The notes under the pieces are model-generated. The model was not told where the DNA came from. It made no database searches and was given only the letters and a program-made list of their open reading frames with translations. A program made the translations under genes and the position numbers. From a virus: a stretch of 28,065 nt of DNA. Shown in pieces: positions 964-27,299 of the stretch. Position 1 is the first letter of the stretch. Every line of letters starts with the position of its first letter. The DNA lies in IMG/VR virus record IMGVR_UViG_3300046007_003217, positions 1-28,065 of that record, one strand, 5' to 3'.

Positions 964-1485
964 CTAGACATGCCTCCATGTTCTGCGTGCGCGAACCTCT
1001 CGAATTGTCTTGTGGTCAACGCCGAAAGATCGTGCCAACGCGCGGGTTGGCGCGTCGCTTGCTCGGATGCTGCGAACATCTCCTTCCGTCAGCTTGGCTG
1101 ACGTGTGTCTCTCGCCAGCCATGGTTCGGCGCTTCTGCGCCGCATCGCGCATGTTTTCTTTCTGCGAGCCCAGAAACAGGTGATCTGGATTGATGCAGGC
1201 TGGATTATCGCAAACGTGGCAGACGGCCATTCCTTCAGGAATTGGCCCGCGTAAGGTGGCGTAGGCCACTCGTGGCGCGCTCTGCCATTTGCCCTGAATT
1301 TCAATACTGCCGCGCTGAGTCCTAGGATTGCGCTTGCTTTGCCAAATCCAGCACCCATTCGCGGCAATAGTGACATTGGCCTTAAGCCGACACTCAAGTC
1401 CGCAATACAGGCTTGCGCCATAACCTTGATACGCTGCGCCGCAACGCTCACAGAGCCACGGGGTTGATTTTCGCGGAGTAACCAT
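964..1485 (-). CDS. HNH endonuclease, homing-type, with zinc ribbon and C-terminal HTH
   Basis: The 173-residue protein begins with a four-cysteine zinc-ribbon-like knuckle (C12, C15, C28, C32). It then has the HNH_3-type core: CHVCDNPACINPDHLFLGSQ at about residues 89-108, followed by the ENM motif with N111. The C-terminus (from SAKLTEGDVRSIR to RTWRHV) matches the helix-turn-helix tail common in free-standing phage HNH nucleases and probably gives DNA binding. Such enzymes cut DNA and often spread as homing endonucleases. It sits between a virion-accessory gene and the lysis genes, and its 60-base upstream gap is larger than its neighbours' overlaps, which fits a later insertion. No flanking intron ends are visible, so it looks free-standing. 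The start is an ATG with only a weak GAAGAA upstream. Confidence 0.88.
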   Translation of the reverse strand: MVTPRKSTPWLCERCGAAYQGYGASLYCGLECRLKANVTIAANGCWIWQSKRNPRTQRGSIEIQGKWQSAPRVAYATLRGPIPEGMAVCHVCDNPACINPDHLFLGSQKENMRDAAQKRRTMAGERHTSAKLTEGDVRSIRASDAPTRALARSFGVDHKTIREVRARRTWRHV

Positions 1486-4427: not shown

Positions 4428-6511
4428 GCGAAGAACTCGAATGGAGCAAACCCGAGCGCGTTAACGCCGCCCATCTGCAAAGCTTGCACGCCTGCGCGCG
4501 AGCGTAAATCTCGCTGCTCTTGCGCACGCCTAAGCGCCCTGGAAAGAAGGCCGCGCTGCTGCGCGAACTGCTGAATATTTGCAGGCGCGCCTTGGCCTGT
4601 CAAAGGCGTGCGCAGCAAGTCCAGAACGTCTGTAGCCAGTTGCTCGTCGTAGCGGGCCTGCGCATCGCGTCCAAGCGCCCTGCGAACCCGCGCAATCGGC
4701 GTGCCGTCAGCGCCAAACATTTGGTCCGCGCCCTGAAGCTTGTCTGCGGTCGGAGAGCCGCGCCCGATATTGGTGTCCGCGTAGTTCTGGAAGAGCCTAC
4801 GCTCGTAATCCAGCGTTCGCATGACACGGTTTAGCCGCGCCTCGCCGCCAAAGATAGCCCGCAGATTGTTGCGCTTGGCTTCGTTACCAATGAGCGCCCG
4901 CAGCACATCGGAACGACCCGTTCCGGTGTCCGCACGAGCGAGCTGCTGGCGCAGGCCAGAGATTGCCGCGTTGCGCGCCGCTTCGCGTTCGCTCTCTGAC
5001 ATGCGCGCCATGCGACGAGCGAAGTCCGCGAGATCGACCTCGCCGCCATCCATGCGCGACGCCTGCTCGCCAAAGCGCCACGCAGAGCGCAGACGCTCCG
5101 TGCCAGCAAACTGGCTCATCGCTTGGCCGTAAGGGCTCTGGCGACCGCCCAGAAGATTGATAACCGAGCGATTGACCATCTGGTCATCGGCCACCATCTC
5201 GGCCACCGCCGAGCCGCGTGGCGCTGCAAGGGGCGTCATTTGCGCGGCCTTGTAGAGCGCGCTAACCTCTGCGCTGACGTTCTCTTGAAGCTTATGCCAG
5301 AAGCGCGGCGAACGCATGATCTCCGCATCCGTCGCATTTGGATTGCCAAGCGCTCGGCGCATTGACTCGCGCGCCTCGTCGACCGCAGCCTTAAACCTTG
5401 CCCCAGACCGGCTGTTGAACGAAACGAAGTCCCGAAGCTCGCGCGGGACAGCTTGCACGGTCTGACGCATCGCCTCCTCGAACAGCGGCGCCGACTCCGT
5501 GCGCTGCACCTCGTCTAACTCATCCCAGGTCTGCGCTACCGTGCGGCGCTGTCCACCGCCCAGATCGCGCACAAGCGCGGCCTCAACACGCTCACGAGCG
5601 CCCGCATTGCGCTGCTCAAGCGCCTGTTGCATCGCGCGGCGTCCAGCGCTCGGCCGAGCGCCTGCGACCATCGCCATGTTCGTTCCAGCCTCATCCAGAA
5701 CATCCATGACCATCGGGTTAGAGCCGGGGGAAAATTGCTCCATACGCGCCAAACCACGGCGGCGGCGCTCTAGTTCTTGCTCAACGCTGATCCCGCGCCG
5801 CGCCGCCTCTTCTGGAATGTCAGAGCGATTGATTGCCCGCCCAAGCTCTTGTGCGGCGCGTTCGGCTGGGTCCATCATCGGAGAGATGGCTGAGCGCCAT
5901 GCGTGCGCCGCGCCCATGCCGACGCCCTGGAACGCCGCGCCCGTAACGCCGCCCAGCGCGGCGCCGCCCAAGGCTCCCATCGCGCGATTGCCCAGACCTT
6001 CGGCGTCCAGGCGGTCATCATTGTCGGAGCCCGCTCCATAGACCGCGCCAAAGCCTGCACCAGAACCGCCAGCCGCCATGATGCGCTGAGCGGGCGTAAG
6101 GTTGCGGAGCGCGCTTGCCCCCGCTGCTGCGCCGCGCGCCCCGCGCGCCGCAAGACCGATTGCGCCGCCAAGCGGCAGCGATCCGGCAATGGCGCCGCCA
6201 AGAGCCGAGCCCGCGTGATACTGCCATGCGTCGCGCAAGCGCTGGCGTGAACGCTCGGCTTGATTTGTGTACGCAGAGCCGAAGTCGCCGCCACTCAGAC
6301 TGGCGCCAATGCCAGCCCCAAGCCCCATGAGTTCGTCACCAAAGCCAAGGCTCAAAGAGTCGCCAGCAGACGAAAGAAACGACCCATACTCACCGCCCGC
6401 ACCTTGCAGGCGGTTTAGGCGACGCTCTTGTTGAATGTCAAAACGGGACGCGCGACCAGACGCGATGCGCTGCAATTCTTCGTTGCTGAAGTCATCCCAG
6501 CCGCGCGTCAT
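4424..6511 (-). CDS. Large internal virion / DNA-ejection protein
   Basis: The 695-residue protein has a polar N-terminus (about residues 1-60). A long Gly/Ala-rich zone with glycine-zipper character follows (about residues 65-210, for example SALGGAIAGSLPLGGAIG and MGALGGAALGGVTGAAFQG). The rest is a long Arg/Glu/Gln-rich helical region. Glycine-zipper plus helical bundle is the usual make-up of podovirus ejection proteins that enter the cell envelope and form a channel for DNA. No lytic-transglycosylase motif was seen. It is the largest product of the tail/ejection group and overlaps its neighbours by ATGA at both ends, so stoichiometry with the preceding 530-residue protein is probably coupled. 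Ejection role is inferred; the family is not named with certainty. Confidence 0.85.
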   Translation of the reverse strand: MTRGWDDFSNEELQRIASGRASRFDIQQERRLNRLQGAGGEYGSFLSSAGDSLSLGFGDELMGLGAGIGASLSGGDFGSAYTNQAERSRQRLRDAWQYHAGSALGGAIAGSLPLGGAIGLAARGARGAAAGASALRNLTPAQRIMAAGGSGAGFGAVYGAGSDNDDRLDAEGLGNRAMGALGGAALGGVTGAAFQGVGMGAAHAWRSAISPMMDPAERAAQELGRAINRSDIPEEAARRGISVEQELERRRRGLARMEQFSPGSNPMVMDVLDEAGTNMAMVAGARPSAGRRAMQQALEQRNAGARERVEAALVRDLGGGQRRTVAQTWDELDEVQRTESAPLFEEAMRQTVQAVPRELRDFVSFNSRSGARFKAAVDEARESMRRALGNPNATDAEIMRSPRFWHKLQENVSAEVSALYKAAQMTPLAAPRGSAVAEMVADDQMVNRSVINLLGGRQSPYGQAMSQFAGTERLRSAWRFGEQASRMDGGEVDLADFARRMARMSESEREAARNAAISGLRQQLARADTGTGRSDVLRALIGNEAKRNNLRAIFGGEARLNRVMRTLDYERRLFQNYADTNIGRGSPTADKLQGADQMFGADGTPIARVRRALGRDAQARYDEQLATDVLDLLRTPLTGQGAPANIQQFAQQRGLLSRALRRAQEQRDLRSRAGVQALQMGGVNALGFAPFEFFA

Positions 6512-8100
6512 GGAATAAGCCCCGCTCTACGCATCCGAATCTCCAGCGTGTTTGCGCGTGCCGTTTGGCCACGCTCGCGCGCCACTGTGTATTCGCGTAC
6601 AAGCTGTTGTTCAAAGATAGAATCCGGCTGGCGAAGCAGGCGCGGTGCGCCAGCGCGCCCGCCTGCCGTGCCGCCCTGCGGCGCCGGCGTTCCACCACCG
6701 CGCGCAGCCAGTGCCGCTGCCGCTTGGCGCGCTTCGTCGGATTGTCCACCACCAGCAGATGCGCCGCCACCTTGGCGACCGAAGCGCGTGTAGCCATCCT
6801 CGCTCTGATACCAATTCCGGCCCGTCTGCGGGTCTGCCTCATAAAGCGAGCGCGGCGCCCCGCCTTCGCCGCCTTGTCGATACCGCAGCGCACTCTGCAC
6901 TTGGCCTTCAAGGTTCTGGCGGTCCTGCCGCGCACGCGCCAGCCAATCGCGTGCAAAAAGAGAGCCGGATTGCACGTTGGGATTGGAGCGAACGGCCGCG
7001 AGAAAGTCGATGTTCGACACCGGCGTCTGACCACGCAAATCTTCGCGCGCAAGATTGCCGGACACAGCATAGATTGTGTTCAGGTCCGCTCGCACCTGAG
7101 GATCGCGGACACGCGCAAGAACAATAGACTGGTCGCCGTCTAGGATTTGGTCGAATGCGGCAGGGTTGCGTTGCAAAATCTCGTCAAGCGCGGCGATGTC
7201 ATTTTCAACGAGGCGCCAACCATCCAAGCGGCCCATCCAGTCATTGATGCGCGTAGCCTCACCCCGGCCAAGCAGCGAGTCGGCCGAGTTAAGCACGCGA
7301 TCCTGCTCAAGCCGCGCGCGATCCACTGCGAGTGACGCGCCGCGGAAAGCGCGATTGTCGCGAGCCTCCTGCGTTTGCAACTCTAGCTGCTGTTGCTGAA
7401 GTTCAACCTGGCGCCGTTGTTGCAGATACGTCCCCAGCTCGTCCGGGTCGATCATGGCAAGCTCTGCGCGCTCTGCTTCGGGACGGCTTGCGATAAAGTC
7501 GTGCGCCAGTTGGCGGCGCTGCGCGACCCAGCCGAATTGTTCCGTCTCGCGTTGCTCGCTCGCATTGGCGCGGCGCTCGGCGTTATCAAGCATCCGGCGC
7601 TGCTGACGTTGCTGGCCCCACGCCTGCATGTCGCGCCCCACCGCGCCCCAATCGCCGCCGTTCTGCGCGTTGCCGAGTAGCGACAGGCCTGTTTGCAAAA
7701 GCGGGTTGTCCATCAAGCCCTCGAAGCGCTCGGTGAATGTAGGCGGGCGTACTTGTGCTTGGCTCTGTCCCGGCGCGTTGGCGAATGTGGTCTGGCCCAT
7801 GCGCTGGACACCCTGTGCGTCCCTGTACGGCACCGCCACAGTTGGATCGTTTGACAGCATCTCAGCGGCTTGCGGCGTGAACGAAATCGGCTGCGGGCGG
7901 CGTTGCTGGGGTCGTGCGGTGGGCTGAGGTTGGGCCGCCGCCGCTTCCTGACGGAACTGCGCCCACCCCGGAACGGGCTCTGGCGCGCTTGGCTGTTGCG
8001 GCTGTTGTGGTTGCGGCTGCGTAAAGTAGCCGTAAGCCGGATCAAGCAACGCAAACGGCGATTGCTGACCGAACATGGAGAGGCGTTGGAGAAGGCCCAT
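6508..8100 (-). CDS. Ejection-type internal virion protein, MGLL N-terminus
   Basis: The 530-residue product begins MGLLQRLSMFGQQ, the N-terminus it shares with several other proteins here. Residues about 20-80 are Gln/Pro-rich (QPQPQQPQQP). The centre (about residues 130-400) is helical and rich in Arg, Gln and Glu, with heptad-like stretches (YLQQRRQVELQQQQLELQTQ). A Gly/Ala-rich linker precedes a conserved-looking C-terminus ending RMRRAGLIP. Composition, length and position between other ejection candidates fit a DNA-transfer protein stored in the particle. The ATG at 8100 comes 6 bases after the stop of the 34-residue gene. The Shine-Dalgarno is weak, so coupling to the upstream mini-gene is likely. 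Confidence 0.8.
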   Translation of the reverse strand: MGLLQRLSMFGQQSPFALLDPAYGYFTQPQPQQPQQPSAPEPVPGWAQFRQEAAAAQPQPTARPQQRRPQPISFTPQAAEMLSNDPTVAVPYRDAQGVQRMGQTTFANAPGQSQAQVRPPTFTERFEGLMDNPLLQTGLSLLGNAQNGGDWGAVGRDMQAWGQQRQQRRMLDNAERRANASEQRETEQFGWVAQRRQLAHDFIASRPEAERAELAMIDPDELGTYLQQRRQVELQQQQLELQTQEARDNRAFRGASLAVDRARLEQDRVLNSADSLLGRGEATRINDWMGRLDGWRLVENDIAALDEILQRNPAAFDQILDGDQSIVLARVRDPQVRADLNTIYAVSGNLAREDLRGQTPVSNIDFLAAVRSNPNVQSGSLFARDWLARARQDRQNLEGQVQSALRYRQGGEGGAPRSLYEADPQTGRNWYQSEDGYTRFGRQGGGASAGGGQSDEARQAAAALAARGGGTPAPQGGTAGGRAGAPRLLRQPDSIFEQQLVREYTVARERGQTARANTLEIRMRRAGLIP

Positions 8101-8213: not shown

Positions 8214-8873
8214 TCATACTCCTCGCAAGAAACGCAGCGGGTCATTCATCGCCCCCGCTTGTGGCGCTTGCCCGATGTACCCGCCGCCGCCATTTAAAAG
8301 CCCGCTTAGGCCGCCAACGCGCCGCCCATTGGTGTTGCCAGTGTTGACGTTCATCGGCGGCACTGGTGTCTGCGGCGGCGTGAACTGAACCGGCATATGC
8401 CCAGGCGACGTGCCGCCGTGGATCGCGCCAAGCTGGTTTTGAAACTCGGGCGATGTGGAGAAGCCGCCTTGGAGCGCCACCATGCCGCCTTGCGGTGGCG
8501 GCATTTGCGGAGGCGGCAAGCCTGCGCCGCCCTGTGAGGCCATCCACGGCGCAAGCTGTGGCGCTTGCTGTTGCAAGCCTGACGACGACCCGCCCCCGCC
8601 GCCCATTGGGATGGCGTAAGGATCACTGAAGGCAGGCATCTGGAAGCCTCGGTCGTGCTGCTGCGCAGGGCCGAATGGATTCATGGACGCCTGCCGGTCC
8701 AGATCGTTTTGGGGCGTCGTCGCCGCCCAAGCAGGTCCAGGCGGTGATGTCGGCCCTCCCGGCTGTTGCTGGATGCCTAGCATGGGCGGCGTTTGTCCAG
8801 GCTGAATACCGGGAGCGCCCGGCATCCCTAACCCTTGCCCGCCGAATGCGTTTAAGCGCCCTAGTAGCCCCAT
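8214..8873 (-). CDS. Gly/Pro/Gln-rich virion protein, MGLL N-terminus
   Basis: The start is the ATG at 8873 rather than an upstream GTG, because GGAGG stands 8 bases before it. The product of 219 residues begins MGLLGRLNAFGGQG. It is low-complexity through most of its length: Pro, Gly, Gln and Met (PGIQPGQTPPMLGIQQQPGG). Runs such as MGGGGGSSSG and PPPQMPPPQGG lie in the middle, and the C-terminus ends DPLRFLRGV. The composition predicts a disordered, extended chain. Such proteins are common in podovirus tail/ejection groups, where they can pack inside the head and unfold through the tail tube. The role is inferred from place and the shared N-terminus. Confidence 0.75.
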   Translation of the reverse strand: MGLLGRLNAFGGQGLGMPGAPGIQPGQTPPMLGIQQQPGGPTSPPGPAWAATTPQNDLDRQASMNPFGPAQQHDRGFQMPAFSDPYAIPMGGGGGSSSGLQQQAPQLAPWMASQGGAGLPPPQMPPPQGGMVALQGGFSTSPEFQNQLGAIHGGTSPGHMPVQFTPPQTPVPPMNVNTGNTNGRRVGGLSGLLNGGGGYIGQAPQAGAMNDPLRFLRGV

Positions 8874-19785: not shown

Positions 19786-20784
19786 TTAGATGCGCCCGGC
19801 CTTCACCAATCCGGTGAAGAACGCCGCGGCGTCATCATCTGAGTTAGTCTGCTTCAATCGGCCCAAAGCGTTCTGTGCAAATTGGCCCTTCTGGTCGCGC
19901 GCTTGTGCGGGCGATCCCTTGGCCTCCTGTTTGCTCCGAACCAGCTTTGGCGCCTTCGCTTCCACCTTCGCCTTCACGTCCCCGCTCTGCGCCTTCATGG
20001 CCCGATAGGCCAAGGCGTCCCGGGCAACGAGTGCCTGCCGGTGGTCTGTCAAAACGGCATCAAGCTCCTCGGCCGTAAAGCCGTAGGACTTGCCCATGTC
20101 GTTGACGAACTTATCAAGCGTCTCGCGCTGGCCGAACTCGGGCCATGCGCGCGTCAGACGCTGCAACTCCAGTGTTTCGCGGTGCTCGGTCGCTTGCGCT
20201 TGCGCGGTTTGCGCTTGCTGCAACAGCCGCCCGCCAAGCTCCTTGGCCTGCCCGTACTGCTGGCTCGCGCGCTGATACTGCGCAAACGCGCGGTGATAGC
20301 CGTCCGGGTCATATTGCGGGCTGGACGGGTTCAGCATCGCCTCGGCATTCGGCGGCTGCGGCTCGCCCAGCATCTGCAACGCCGCTTGCAGCATGTACGC
20401 CGTCTGCTGGCCTACTTGCTCAACCTGACGCAAACGCTGCGTCGCGTGGCTCACCGCCTCCTGCTCGACGCGCTCAATGATCTGCGCCTTCTGGGCTTCG
20501 ATGCGCTCGTAAGCCTGCGCCTTCTCGACCAGCTCGGCCACCTTCAGGCGCTTGGGCTCTTGGCCTTCCTCGCCTGCAATCTCAATCTCGTCTTCGTCCG
20601 GCTCGGGCTCGGCCTTGGCCTTCACCTCTTCCTTCTCGGGCGCCTCTTCCTCTTCGATCGCCGCGTCCGGGTCAGCGTCACGCACTTCTTGCGAGGGCGC
20701 TTGCCCGATGTCGCCCTCGTCCGGGGCCATGACTGCCGTTAGCAGCGCGCTTTCAGCGGCTGCTTCTGTGCTTTCCATGCTCAT
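19786..20784 (-). CDS. Capsid scaffolding protein
   Basis: The 332-residue protein lies directly before the capsid gene, the usual place of a scaffold. Its first 80 residues are strongly acidic (EEEEAPEKEEVKAKAEPEPD). The middle is helical and Gln/Ala/Glu-rich (EKAQAYERIEAQKAQIIERV, QQAQTAQAQATEHRETLEL). The C-terminus holds a basic stretch (KVEAKAPKLVRSKQEAKG) and a short acidic-hydrophobic end (DDDAAAFFTGLVKAGRI) that may bind capsid subunits. Scaffolds shape the procapsid and leave before or during packaging. The GAGG for its start lies inside the end of the repeat-protein gene. Confidence 0.82.
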   Translation of the reverse strand: MSMESTEAAAESALLTAVMAPDEGDIGQAPSQEVRDADPDAAIEEEEAPEKEEVKAKAEPEPDEDEIEIAGEEGQEPKRLKVAELVEKAQAYERIEAQKAQIIERVEQEAVSHATQRLRQVEQVGQQTAYMLQAALQMLGEPQPPNAEAMLNPSSPQYDPDGYHRAFAQYQRASQQYGQAKELGGRLLQQAQTAQAQATEHRETLELQRLTRAWPEFGQRETLDKFVNDMGKSYGFTAEELDAVLTDHRQALVARDALAYRAMKAQSGDVKAKVEAKAPKLVRSKQEAKGSPAQARDQKGQFAQNALGRLKQTNSDDDAAAFFTGLVKAGRI

Positions 20785-21066
20785 CTAGTAACCTCGTGTT
20801 GCCATCAACCGGCGCATCTCGTCATTTGTAAGCGGACCCATGCCCTGCGGCGGCTGCATTGGCGGCGGCGGCGACTGCAACATCCGCATCTCATCATTAG
20901 TCAGCGGCCCCATGCCTTGCGTTGACGGCATGGGCATCGGCATTGGCGCCTGCATCTGGCCCATCTCGTAATTCGACACCGGCCCCATGCCCTGCTGGCG
21001 CAATTGACGACGTTGCATTTCAGCGTTGGTCAGCGGACCCATGCCAGCGGCGCTTATCAGTCCCAT
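20785..21066 (-). CDS. Four-repeat GMGPLTNDEM protein, MGLI N-terminus
   Basis: The 93-residue product begins MGLISAAG and has four copies of a ten-residue motif, G-M-G-P-[LV]-[TS]-N-x-E-M, at residues 8-17, 26-35, 51-60 and 75-84. They are separated by Gln/Arg or Pro/Met-rich linkers (APMPMPMPSTQ, SPPPPMQPPQ). A short motif with disordered linkers suggests several identical binding sites for one partner. It stands directly before the scaffold gene, with the stop next to the scaffold ATG, and may bind capsid, scaffold or portal. The family is not recognised. Confidence 0.72.
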   Translation of the reverse strand: MGLISAAGMGPLTNAEMQRRQLRQQGMGPVSNYEMGQMQAPMPMPMPSTQGMGPLTNDEMRMLQSPPPPMQPPQGMGPLTNDEMRRLMATRGY

Positions 21067-21077
21067 TGCATCACCTT

Positions 21078-21389
21078 TCAGAAATACGGACGCGGGCCCT
21101 TGGCCAAGCGGTCCAGTTCGGCTTCCGCCGCGCGCCCGTCGCGGGCCAATTCAGTCAAGTACTTGAGCATCTGGCGCTGCGATTGGATCGCCACGGCCAG
21201 ATTGCGCCGGCCAGCGTCGTCATCGAGCGGCAGGCTTAGCATCGTATGCGTCAGGTTCGCTTCAGCACGCGCCATGAAGTCTTGGACTTGCGTGCTCTCC
21301 AGAAACTGGCGCACCGCAGCGCCCTCGGATGCGCGCGTGATAAGCGTCGCCTCGTCCGGCGCTGTCGGCATTGGCTGCGAAGGCCGCAC
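21078..21389 (-). CDS. Small helical head-module protein; start uncertain
   Basis: The shown frame starts at a GTG that has no Shine-Dalgarno within 20 bases. The frame stays open upstream for 22 more codons (ISRLEKINSFLRKEIRSF and on), reaching an ATT at 21455. That ATT has GAGGAG exactly 8 bases before it, overlapping the previous gene's stop, so translation from AUU is possible. The product is helical, with EATLITRASEG, QDFMARAEANLTHTML and RQMLKYLTELARDGR, and probably a small minor head protein. No family is recognised. Confidence 0.65.
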   Translation of the reverse strand: MRPSQPMPTAPDEATLITRASEGAAVRQFLESTQVQDFMARAEANLTHTMLSLPLDDDAGRRNLAVAIQSQRQMLKYLTELARDGRAAEAELDRLAKGPRPYF

Positions 21390-25994: not shown

Positions 25995-27299
25995 TTAGGC
26001 CACCGTCCCCATAGGCGGCGCGAGCGGGCGGCTGTCTTCCACGATGGCCTGCTCGCGATAGTCGCACATCATCAGACCGAACGCGTCCGCGTCGTGGCTG
26101 TAGTCGTGGTTCGGCCCACGGTCTGCGCCCGTCTCTTCGCTGATCTTAGGCGCGTAGAGCCCAAGCATGATGCGTCCATCTTCGGTCGTGTCCTCATTGA
26201 AAACTGTCTGTGCAAAGCGCCTGCGCGTCTGCTCGATCCTGAACATCGCTGCACCCGGCCCTTGGTTGGGGATGACCCGCACATTGGCAAAGCCTGCCTT
26301 GCGCCATGCGTCTTCCCACGTCTCTGCCGGCCCGCCATCGTTGGCGCCGTCATGCGGCAGGACGATGTGAGCCTTCTCATAGCCCCGATCCCGCATCCAC
26401 TGAACGTGCGCTGCGAGCGGTTGGCCTTGAGCGTTGTAGTGATCGAGCACCCTGATCTCGCGGCCCACACGCTGCGTGATCCAGATGACGTAGTTGTCAG
26501 CCTTCGCGCCTTTGCCGCCGATGTCGTGGTGGCTGTAGATCGGCAGCAACGGCTCTTTGAACACGCGCGTGATACGCTTGTCCTGCTTGGCCCTCAGTAG
26601 GTCCTGGGCATAGTAAGCGCCCGTCGCCGCTGTGGCGTAAGCGCCTTCCCAGATATGCTCGTACTGCTCTGGCCGGTCGCGCAAATCGCGCTGGCGCTCG
26701 GCCTCTAGCACTGCGGGAAACCACGGGTTATCCCGCCAGTTCAGCTCAACGATCTTGGTGTCGGCATCGCTCGGATTGCCAAAGCGCTTGTTGGTGGCGC
26801 TCGCCTTCAGCCTCGGGTTCCAGGTCAGCCATATCTCTGACCCCTCTTCCCGCACCGTAGGGATAAGCACCACCCACGCCGCTTCACTGACGTCCTCGGC
26901 CTCGTCGATCCAGCACAGCAGAATGCGCGCCTTCGACTTGATGCTGCTGAGGTTGCGCGCCAAGCCAACGAACAGATACTCGACCCGACGGCACTTGGTG
27001 CGGATGAACGTCTCGCCAATCTCGAACACCGTGATCAGCCACGGGTCGGAGCGTATGGCTGCGGCGACCTCGCTGAACGAGGAGTCCGCCAAGCTGTTCA
27101 TGAACTGACGGCCGCAGAGGATGACTCCTTCGCGCCCCTCTGCTGCTGCCTTGGCGCCGATCACAGCGCTCATCTTGGCGAAGGTGCGCGTCTTGGCTGA
27201 GCCACGACCGCCTTTAGCGCCTCTGAACCTCGCCTTGCCCTCGAATACCGGGACTAGCTTGTCCGGTAGCTCGATCTCATGCGTCTGGTCGAACGCCAC
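25995..27299 (-). CDS. Terminase large subunit
   Basis: The 434-residue protein carries both packaging domains. The ATPase has Walker A GGRGSAKT (residues 30-37), Walker B ILLCWIDEAED (126-136) and a WLTWNPR coupling motif (157-163). The RNase H-like nuclease carries acidic residues at HHDIG (D259), PHDG (D317) and HDADAF (D403, D405). It translocates DNA into the head and cuts it. The length and motifs match the PBSX/P22-type terminase. The GTG start at 27299 overlaps the small subunit gene by 23 bases. Confidence 0.95.
   Translation of the reverse strand: MAFDQTHEIELPDKLVPVFEGKARFRGAKGGRGSAKTRTFAKMSAVIGAKAAAEGREGVILCGRQFMNSLADSSFSEVAAAIRSDPWLITVFEIGETFIRTKCRRVEYLFVGLARNLSSIKSKARILLCWIDEAEDVSEAAWVVLIPTVREEGSEIWLTWNPRLKASATNKRFGNPSDADTKIVELNWRDNPWFPAVLEAERQRDLRDRPEQYEHIWEGAYATAATGAYYAQDLLRAKQDKRITRVFKEPLLPIYSHHDIGGKGAKADNYVIWITQRVGREIRVLDHYNAQGQPLAAHVQWMRDRGYEKAHIVLPHDGANDGGPAETWEDAWRKAGFANVRVIPNQGPGAAMFRIEQTRRRFAQTVFNEDTTEDGRIMLGLYAPKISEETGADRGPNHDYSHDADAFGLMMCDYREQAIVEDSRPLAPPMGTVA

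Follow-up and report, generated by a model that had tools for sequence, protein, structure and literature searches.

A probable accessory orphan gene encoding four copies of a putative helix-capping peptide lies between two head genes of a phage with SU10-type portal and capsid

Phage morons and accessory orphans are genes inserted between conserved structural genes; those that resemble the present one are single small genes, cleanly present or absent between syntenic and near-identical genes, and have no homologues. Multivalent short-linear-motif proteins, e.g. disordered viral proteins with repeated host-binding peptides, keep a conserved peptide between variable linkers. The GYF_2 domain (PF14237) contains a helix start of the form GP-[LV]-[TS]-x-x-E-[LM]. 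The gene described here shares features with all three. It was found in a stretch of DNA of 28,065 nucleotides from an uncultured tailed phage (IMGVR_UViG_3300046007_003217), called the window below, and the features of the locus are as follows.

20785–21066, minus strand: four-motif gene (accessory orphan, 93 aa), characterized by ORF listing, composition, absence from seven relatives and homologue searches
21078–21389, minus strand: gene of a conserved small protein of 103 aa, which is 100% identical in relatives L004 and L006
21067–21077, minus strand: new intergenic sequence AAGGTGATGCA with a Shine-Dalgarno-like AAGG, from the junction alignment
20785–20796, minus strand: last codons CGAGGTTACTAG of the four-motif gene, adjoining the scaffold ATG, from the junction alignment
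19786–20784, minus strand: head scaffolding protein gene, matching phrog_3927 (E 6e-14)

The ORF runs from 21066 down to 20785 (282 bp), with an ATG start and a TAG stop, and the preliminary description had placed it correctly, both in its coordinates with four GMGP[LV][TS]NxEM copies and in its position before the scaffold gene, which is followed by the gene of the major capsid protein. Its product (MGLISAAGMGPLTNAEMQRRQLRQQGMGPVSNYEMGQMQAPMPMPMPSTQGMGPLTNDEMRMLQSPPPPMQPPQGMGPLTNDEMRRLMATRGY) is rich in Met, Pro, Gly and Gln (17, 15, 12 and 11%, respectively). The GC content of the gene is 0.61 and its GC3 is 0.72, inside the range of the phage's own genes; the insert is compositionally native. 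The linkers between the motifs are variable, Pro/Met/Gln-rich and look disordered; most of the protein is probably disordered.

Homologues of the protein were sought at several levels. No homologue was obtained by tblastn in phages and plasmids at E values up to 10, and a protein search of viral contigs returned only a contig that is 100% identical to the window over 13.9 kb, the sole other holder of the gene among the viral contigs. The same contig was the only one recovered from the viral contigs with the strict motif pattern and with a two-copy pattern. Nothing meaningful was found among solved structures, no match above thresholds was obtained in Pfam, PHROGs, NCBIfam or PADLOC, no defence family was hit, and no precedent for the motif was found in the literature. 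The single-motif pattern matched none of 84,980 genomes, in a type of scan that diverged motifs escape. The two-copy pattern gave five frames in the genomes, all of them unrelated low-complexity or interrupted ones, and these were discarded. A match to phrog_2534 ('released from the phage upon host infection') had an E value of 0.006 and covered 18 of 435 positions, and the protein was not assigned to that family. Within the limits of these searches, the four-motif gene is an orphan.

A search for the motif in phage proteins had been proposed in the preliminary description; among the viral contigs, outside the identical one, it yields only single copies in unrelated proteins. With a relaxed single-motif pattern three more viral contigs (L027, L028 and L029) were obtained, each with one motif. 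The copy in L027 was taken as a coincidence, as those homologues of the L027 protein that were examined lack it. In L028 (1632–1661) and L029 (7931–7960) one motif-like copy stands near the C-terminus of a 77-residue frame ending in MQGMGPISKKEMRKAKGGKSA, and it is probably coincidental as well.

The genes around the ORF stand on the same strand in the order terminase large subunit, SU10-type portal (E 2e-163), a 485-aa protein, a 136-aa protein, the 103-aa protein, the four-motif gene, scaffold and SU10-type major capsid (E 3e-76). More distant phages, e.g. Pelagibacter phage HTVC106P, Methylophilales phage Venkman, Rhizobium phage RHph_N3_2 and Sinorhizobium phage phiM5, show the order portal, one small protein, scaffold and capsid, the small gene standing where the 103-aa gene stands here. 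Phage phiM5 has an extra, unrelated ORF of 37 aa in the slot before the scaffold gene.

Relatives of the phage were gathered from the viral contigs with the capsid, 103-aa and scaffold proteins as queries. The four-motif gene is absent from all seven of them (L004, L006, L007, L008, L009, L010 and L011), and in all seven the gap between the 103-aa gene and the scaffold ATG is 8–9 bp. The two closest, L004 and L006, have capsid and 103-aa proteins 100% identical and a portal 99.8% identical to those of the window; in L004, the closest, the flanking DNA is about 96–98% identical. The scaffold protein is 85–96% identical in L004, L006, L007 and L008, none of which has the insert. It can be seen in the junction alignment that in these four contigs the stop codon of the 103-aa gene is followed by GGTAACGC and then by the scaffold ATG. 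In the window the same stop codon is followed by AAGGTGATGCA, then by the 282-bp ORF and directly by the same scaffold ATG. The GAGG within CGAGGTTACTAG probably serves the scaffold gene as ribosome-binding site, replacing the TGAGGTAACGC of the relatives. The insertion thus seems clean, the gene having come with its own ribosome-binding site as one unit, apparently in a single gain. No moved copy was detected in the whole records of the relatives, and an origin by local duplication was set aside, since the insert does not convincingly resemble other parts of the window or the relatives. The gene is present in one phage and absent from relatives with the flanks kept, as expected of an accessory inserted gene; a core head-assembly protein would be kept by those relatives that share the head genes, and this one is not.

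The gene might alternatively be ancestral, its absence from the relatives being due to loss. Enough time has passed for the motif copies to diverge at silent sites, and GAGGT-like sequence on both sides would allow a clean deletion. However, the gene is lacking in the closest relatives (L004 and L006), in the intermediate ones (L007 and L008), in the more distant ones (L009, L010 and L011) and in six distant phages, and several losses would be needed in place of one gain. Since nearer and farther relatives all lack the gene, one gain is more economical than repeated loss. Loss therefore seems improbable, and from this distribution we infer a gain.

Other rearrangements were observed among the relatives. 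In L009 (IMGVR_UViG_3300005805_000622) an insert of about 720 bp (5848–6558, corresponding to window 19696/19697) interrupts the major capsid gene after about codon 24; it matches the Rfam group I intron model with 48.6 bits against a gathering cut-off of 50 (E 5e-11), and within it lies an ORF that resembles HNH endonucleases. An ORF near the contig end of the window (964–1485, minus strand) also contains HNH-endonuclease-like sequence, as judged by eye, and likewise points to mobile genes in this phage group. The terminase large subunit (window 25995–27299) is 99% identical to that of L004 and L006 and 36% identical to that of L008, L009 and L010, while the adjoining portal is 70–97% identical in the latter three, a pattern that would fit a module swap at the terminase/portal border. 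The scaffold gene of L006 (6981–7982, against window 19786–20784) has a replaced central segment, with 85% identity as compared with 96% in L004 and with the same neighbours, which suggests local recombination inside this gene.

The four copies of the motif begin at residues 8, 26, 51 and 75 of the 93-aa protein, and their positions in the window are given here.

21016–21045, minus strand: motif copy 1, GMGPLTNAEM (residues 8–17)
20962–20991, minus strand: motif copy 2, GMGPVSNYEM (residues 26–35)
20887–20916, minus strand: motif copy 3, GMGPLTNDEM (residues 51–60)
20815–20844, minus strand: motif copy 4, GMGPLTNDEM (residues 75–84)

The repetition far exceeds what chance would give: the protein contains 17 repeated 4-mers, whereas 20,000 shuffled versions of it had 0.28 on average and never more than 5. 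It had been proposed in the preliminary description that the repeats differ at the DNA level, that the motif is kept by selection and that it is not a fresh duplication, and the comparison of the copies agrees with these three points. The ten residues of copies 3 and 4 are identical, yet their DNA differs at four silent sites, and the probability that four random substitutions would all be silent is ~0.001; for copies 1 and 4 the probability of at most one residue change out of six substitutions is ~0.0015. Over the four 10-codon copies the pooled pS is 0.61 and the pooled pN is 0.09 (the pairs are few and non-independent), and third codon positions account for 6 of the 10 variable columns. 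A shortage of synonymous changes, which would have spoken against the proposal, was thus not observed. The copies differ mainly at silent sites; therefore the peptide stayed the same as its DNA changed. No array spanning the copies was reported by Tandem Repeats Finder, which argues against a fresh duplication. The motif has probably been under constraint for some time and kept by selection, as a short repeated peptide between variable linkers. The holder is one lineage only, and the constraint could date from a previous owner of the gene, before its transfer. No further ORF of the window and none of the relatives contains the motif.

These data also bear on whether the ORF is a fortuitous, non-functional one or part of a junk insertion, as its lack of homologues, its low-complexity composition and its restriction to one lineage might suggest. 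Against this stand the silent-site bias among the copies, the good ribosome-binding site, the intact frame and the exact packing against the scaffold ATG, and we consider a junk ORF to be improbable.

The sequence [LV]-[TS]-N-x-E-M is a classic helix N-capping box, with Thr/Ser as N-cap and Glu at N3, together with a hydrophobic staple. In a low-confidence AlphaFold2 model made without an alignment (pLDDT 68, pTM 0.20) there is no global fold, and helices at residues 14–24, 57–63 and 81–90 and a three-residue turn at 32–34 each directly follow the T/S of a motif. The helix starts in the model agree with the capping-box prediction. Foldseek on this model gave nothing with an E value below 0.7. 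A match to Pfam GYF_2 at residues 76–90 (E 0.002) raises the possibility that the protein is a fragmentary GYF_2-like domain protein. Unlike GYF_2, however, it has no complete domain: the match scores 18.3 bits against a curated cut-off of 25.8 and covers 15 of the 50 profile positions (10–24), and nothing is found by NCBIfam. Membership, for which the curated cut-off and most of the domain would be expected, was rejected, and we regard this explanation as very improbable. The sub-threshold match is explained by the similar helix start of GYF_2, i.e. a shared helix-cap pattern.

The N-terminus of the protein was also compared with others of the phage. Minus-strand starts at window positions 8873, 8100, 11246, 14553 and 21066 give proteins beginning with a similar MG[LF][LI], some of which continue in Pro/Gln/Met-rich stretches; the resemblance may reflect a common virion-targeting start or be fortuitous. 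As a link to other phage proteins the 'MGLL' start was set aside, being weak and limited to a few proteins.

No promoter- or terminator-like site was detected in the region by a consensus scan, which for promoters covered sigma-70-type sites. Unlike a strict moron, the gene therefore has no promoter or terminator of its own that could be found, so that we call it an accessory gene and not a moron in the strict sense. For the same reason it probably depends on the late operon. We favour, with somewhat better than even confidence, the reading that it is an accessory orphan expressed late, whose product is a multivalent helical-peptide ligand with a partner dispensable for head building. One clean insertion of ribosome-binding site and ORF between the 103-aa and scaffold genes would have taken place, probably recently, in one phage lineage, and the gene would share the late-operon expression of the head genes, as its strand and packing suggest. 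Each motif would form a GMGP turn, followed by Thr/Ser as N-cap and by Glu at the third residue after it, with Leu/Val and Met as a hydrophobic pair round the cap. The mostly disordered protein with its four helix-starting peptides would then bind one partner several times, the strength coming from copy number. A multivalent short-linear-motif ligand is most likely the natural reading of repeats, constraint and disordered linkers. Unlike described proteins of this kind, it matches no known motif class or partner, and the case rests on sequence.

Multiple binding of one partner had been suggested in the preliminary description, with the capsid, scaffold or portal as candidates. The first part is supported at the sequence level by the repeated constrained peptide and its linkers. 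The second is not, as L004 and L006 carry an identical capsid and a 99.8% identical portal without the gene, and conservation of the motif does not extend beyond the identical contig. Near-identical phages build the same head without the gene; thus head assembly does not need the protein. A weaker form of the proposal is that the motifs bind capsid, scaffold or portal in a dispensable decoration, stabiliser or assembly tuner. The position of the gene on the same strand between conserved head genes and the suitability of a multivalent ligand for a symmetric shell both speak for it, and decoration and minor proteins of phages are often dispensable. However, phages that have the gene and phages that lack it share the same major capsid and portal proteins, in which no adjustment to a new ligand is visible, no other ORF of the window or the relatives contains the motif, and no known head protein family matches, so that such a virion accessory seems possible but rather unlikely. 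For the favoured ligand, a host protein or process as partner has a chance a little short of even and is placed ahead of a non-essential virion or scaffold contact, an ordering drawn solely from dispensability. Self-association or another role is unlikely. More speculatively, the protein might be a late phage effector of a new kind, whose four helical-peptide sites would capture or inhibit a host protein such as a defence sensor recognising head components; it would be a recent gain by one lineage, and carriage in the head operon would let it be made together with the structural proteins. This proposal as a whole is rather unlikely.

The near-identical phages with and without the gene provide a natural knock-out comparison that is unusually clean, and the repeated motif (the GMGPLTNDEMRRLM peptide) is a ready bait for partner finding. 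Head operons of phages are regarded as tightly conserved, yet here a new protein appears to have been slotted between two assembly genes with no change seen in the neighbours.
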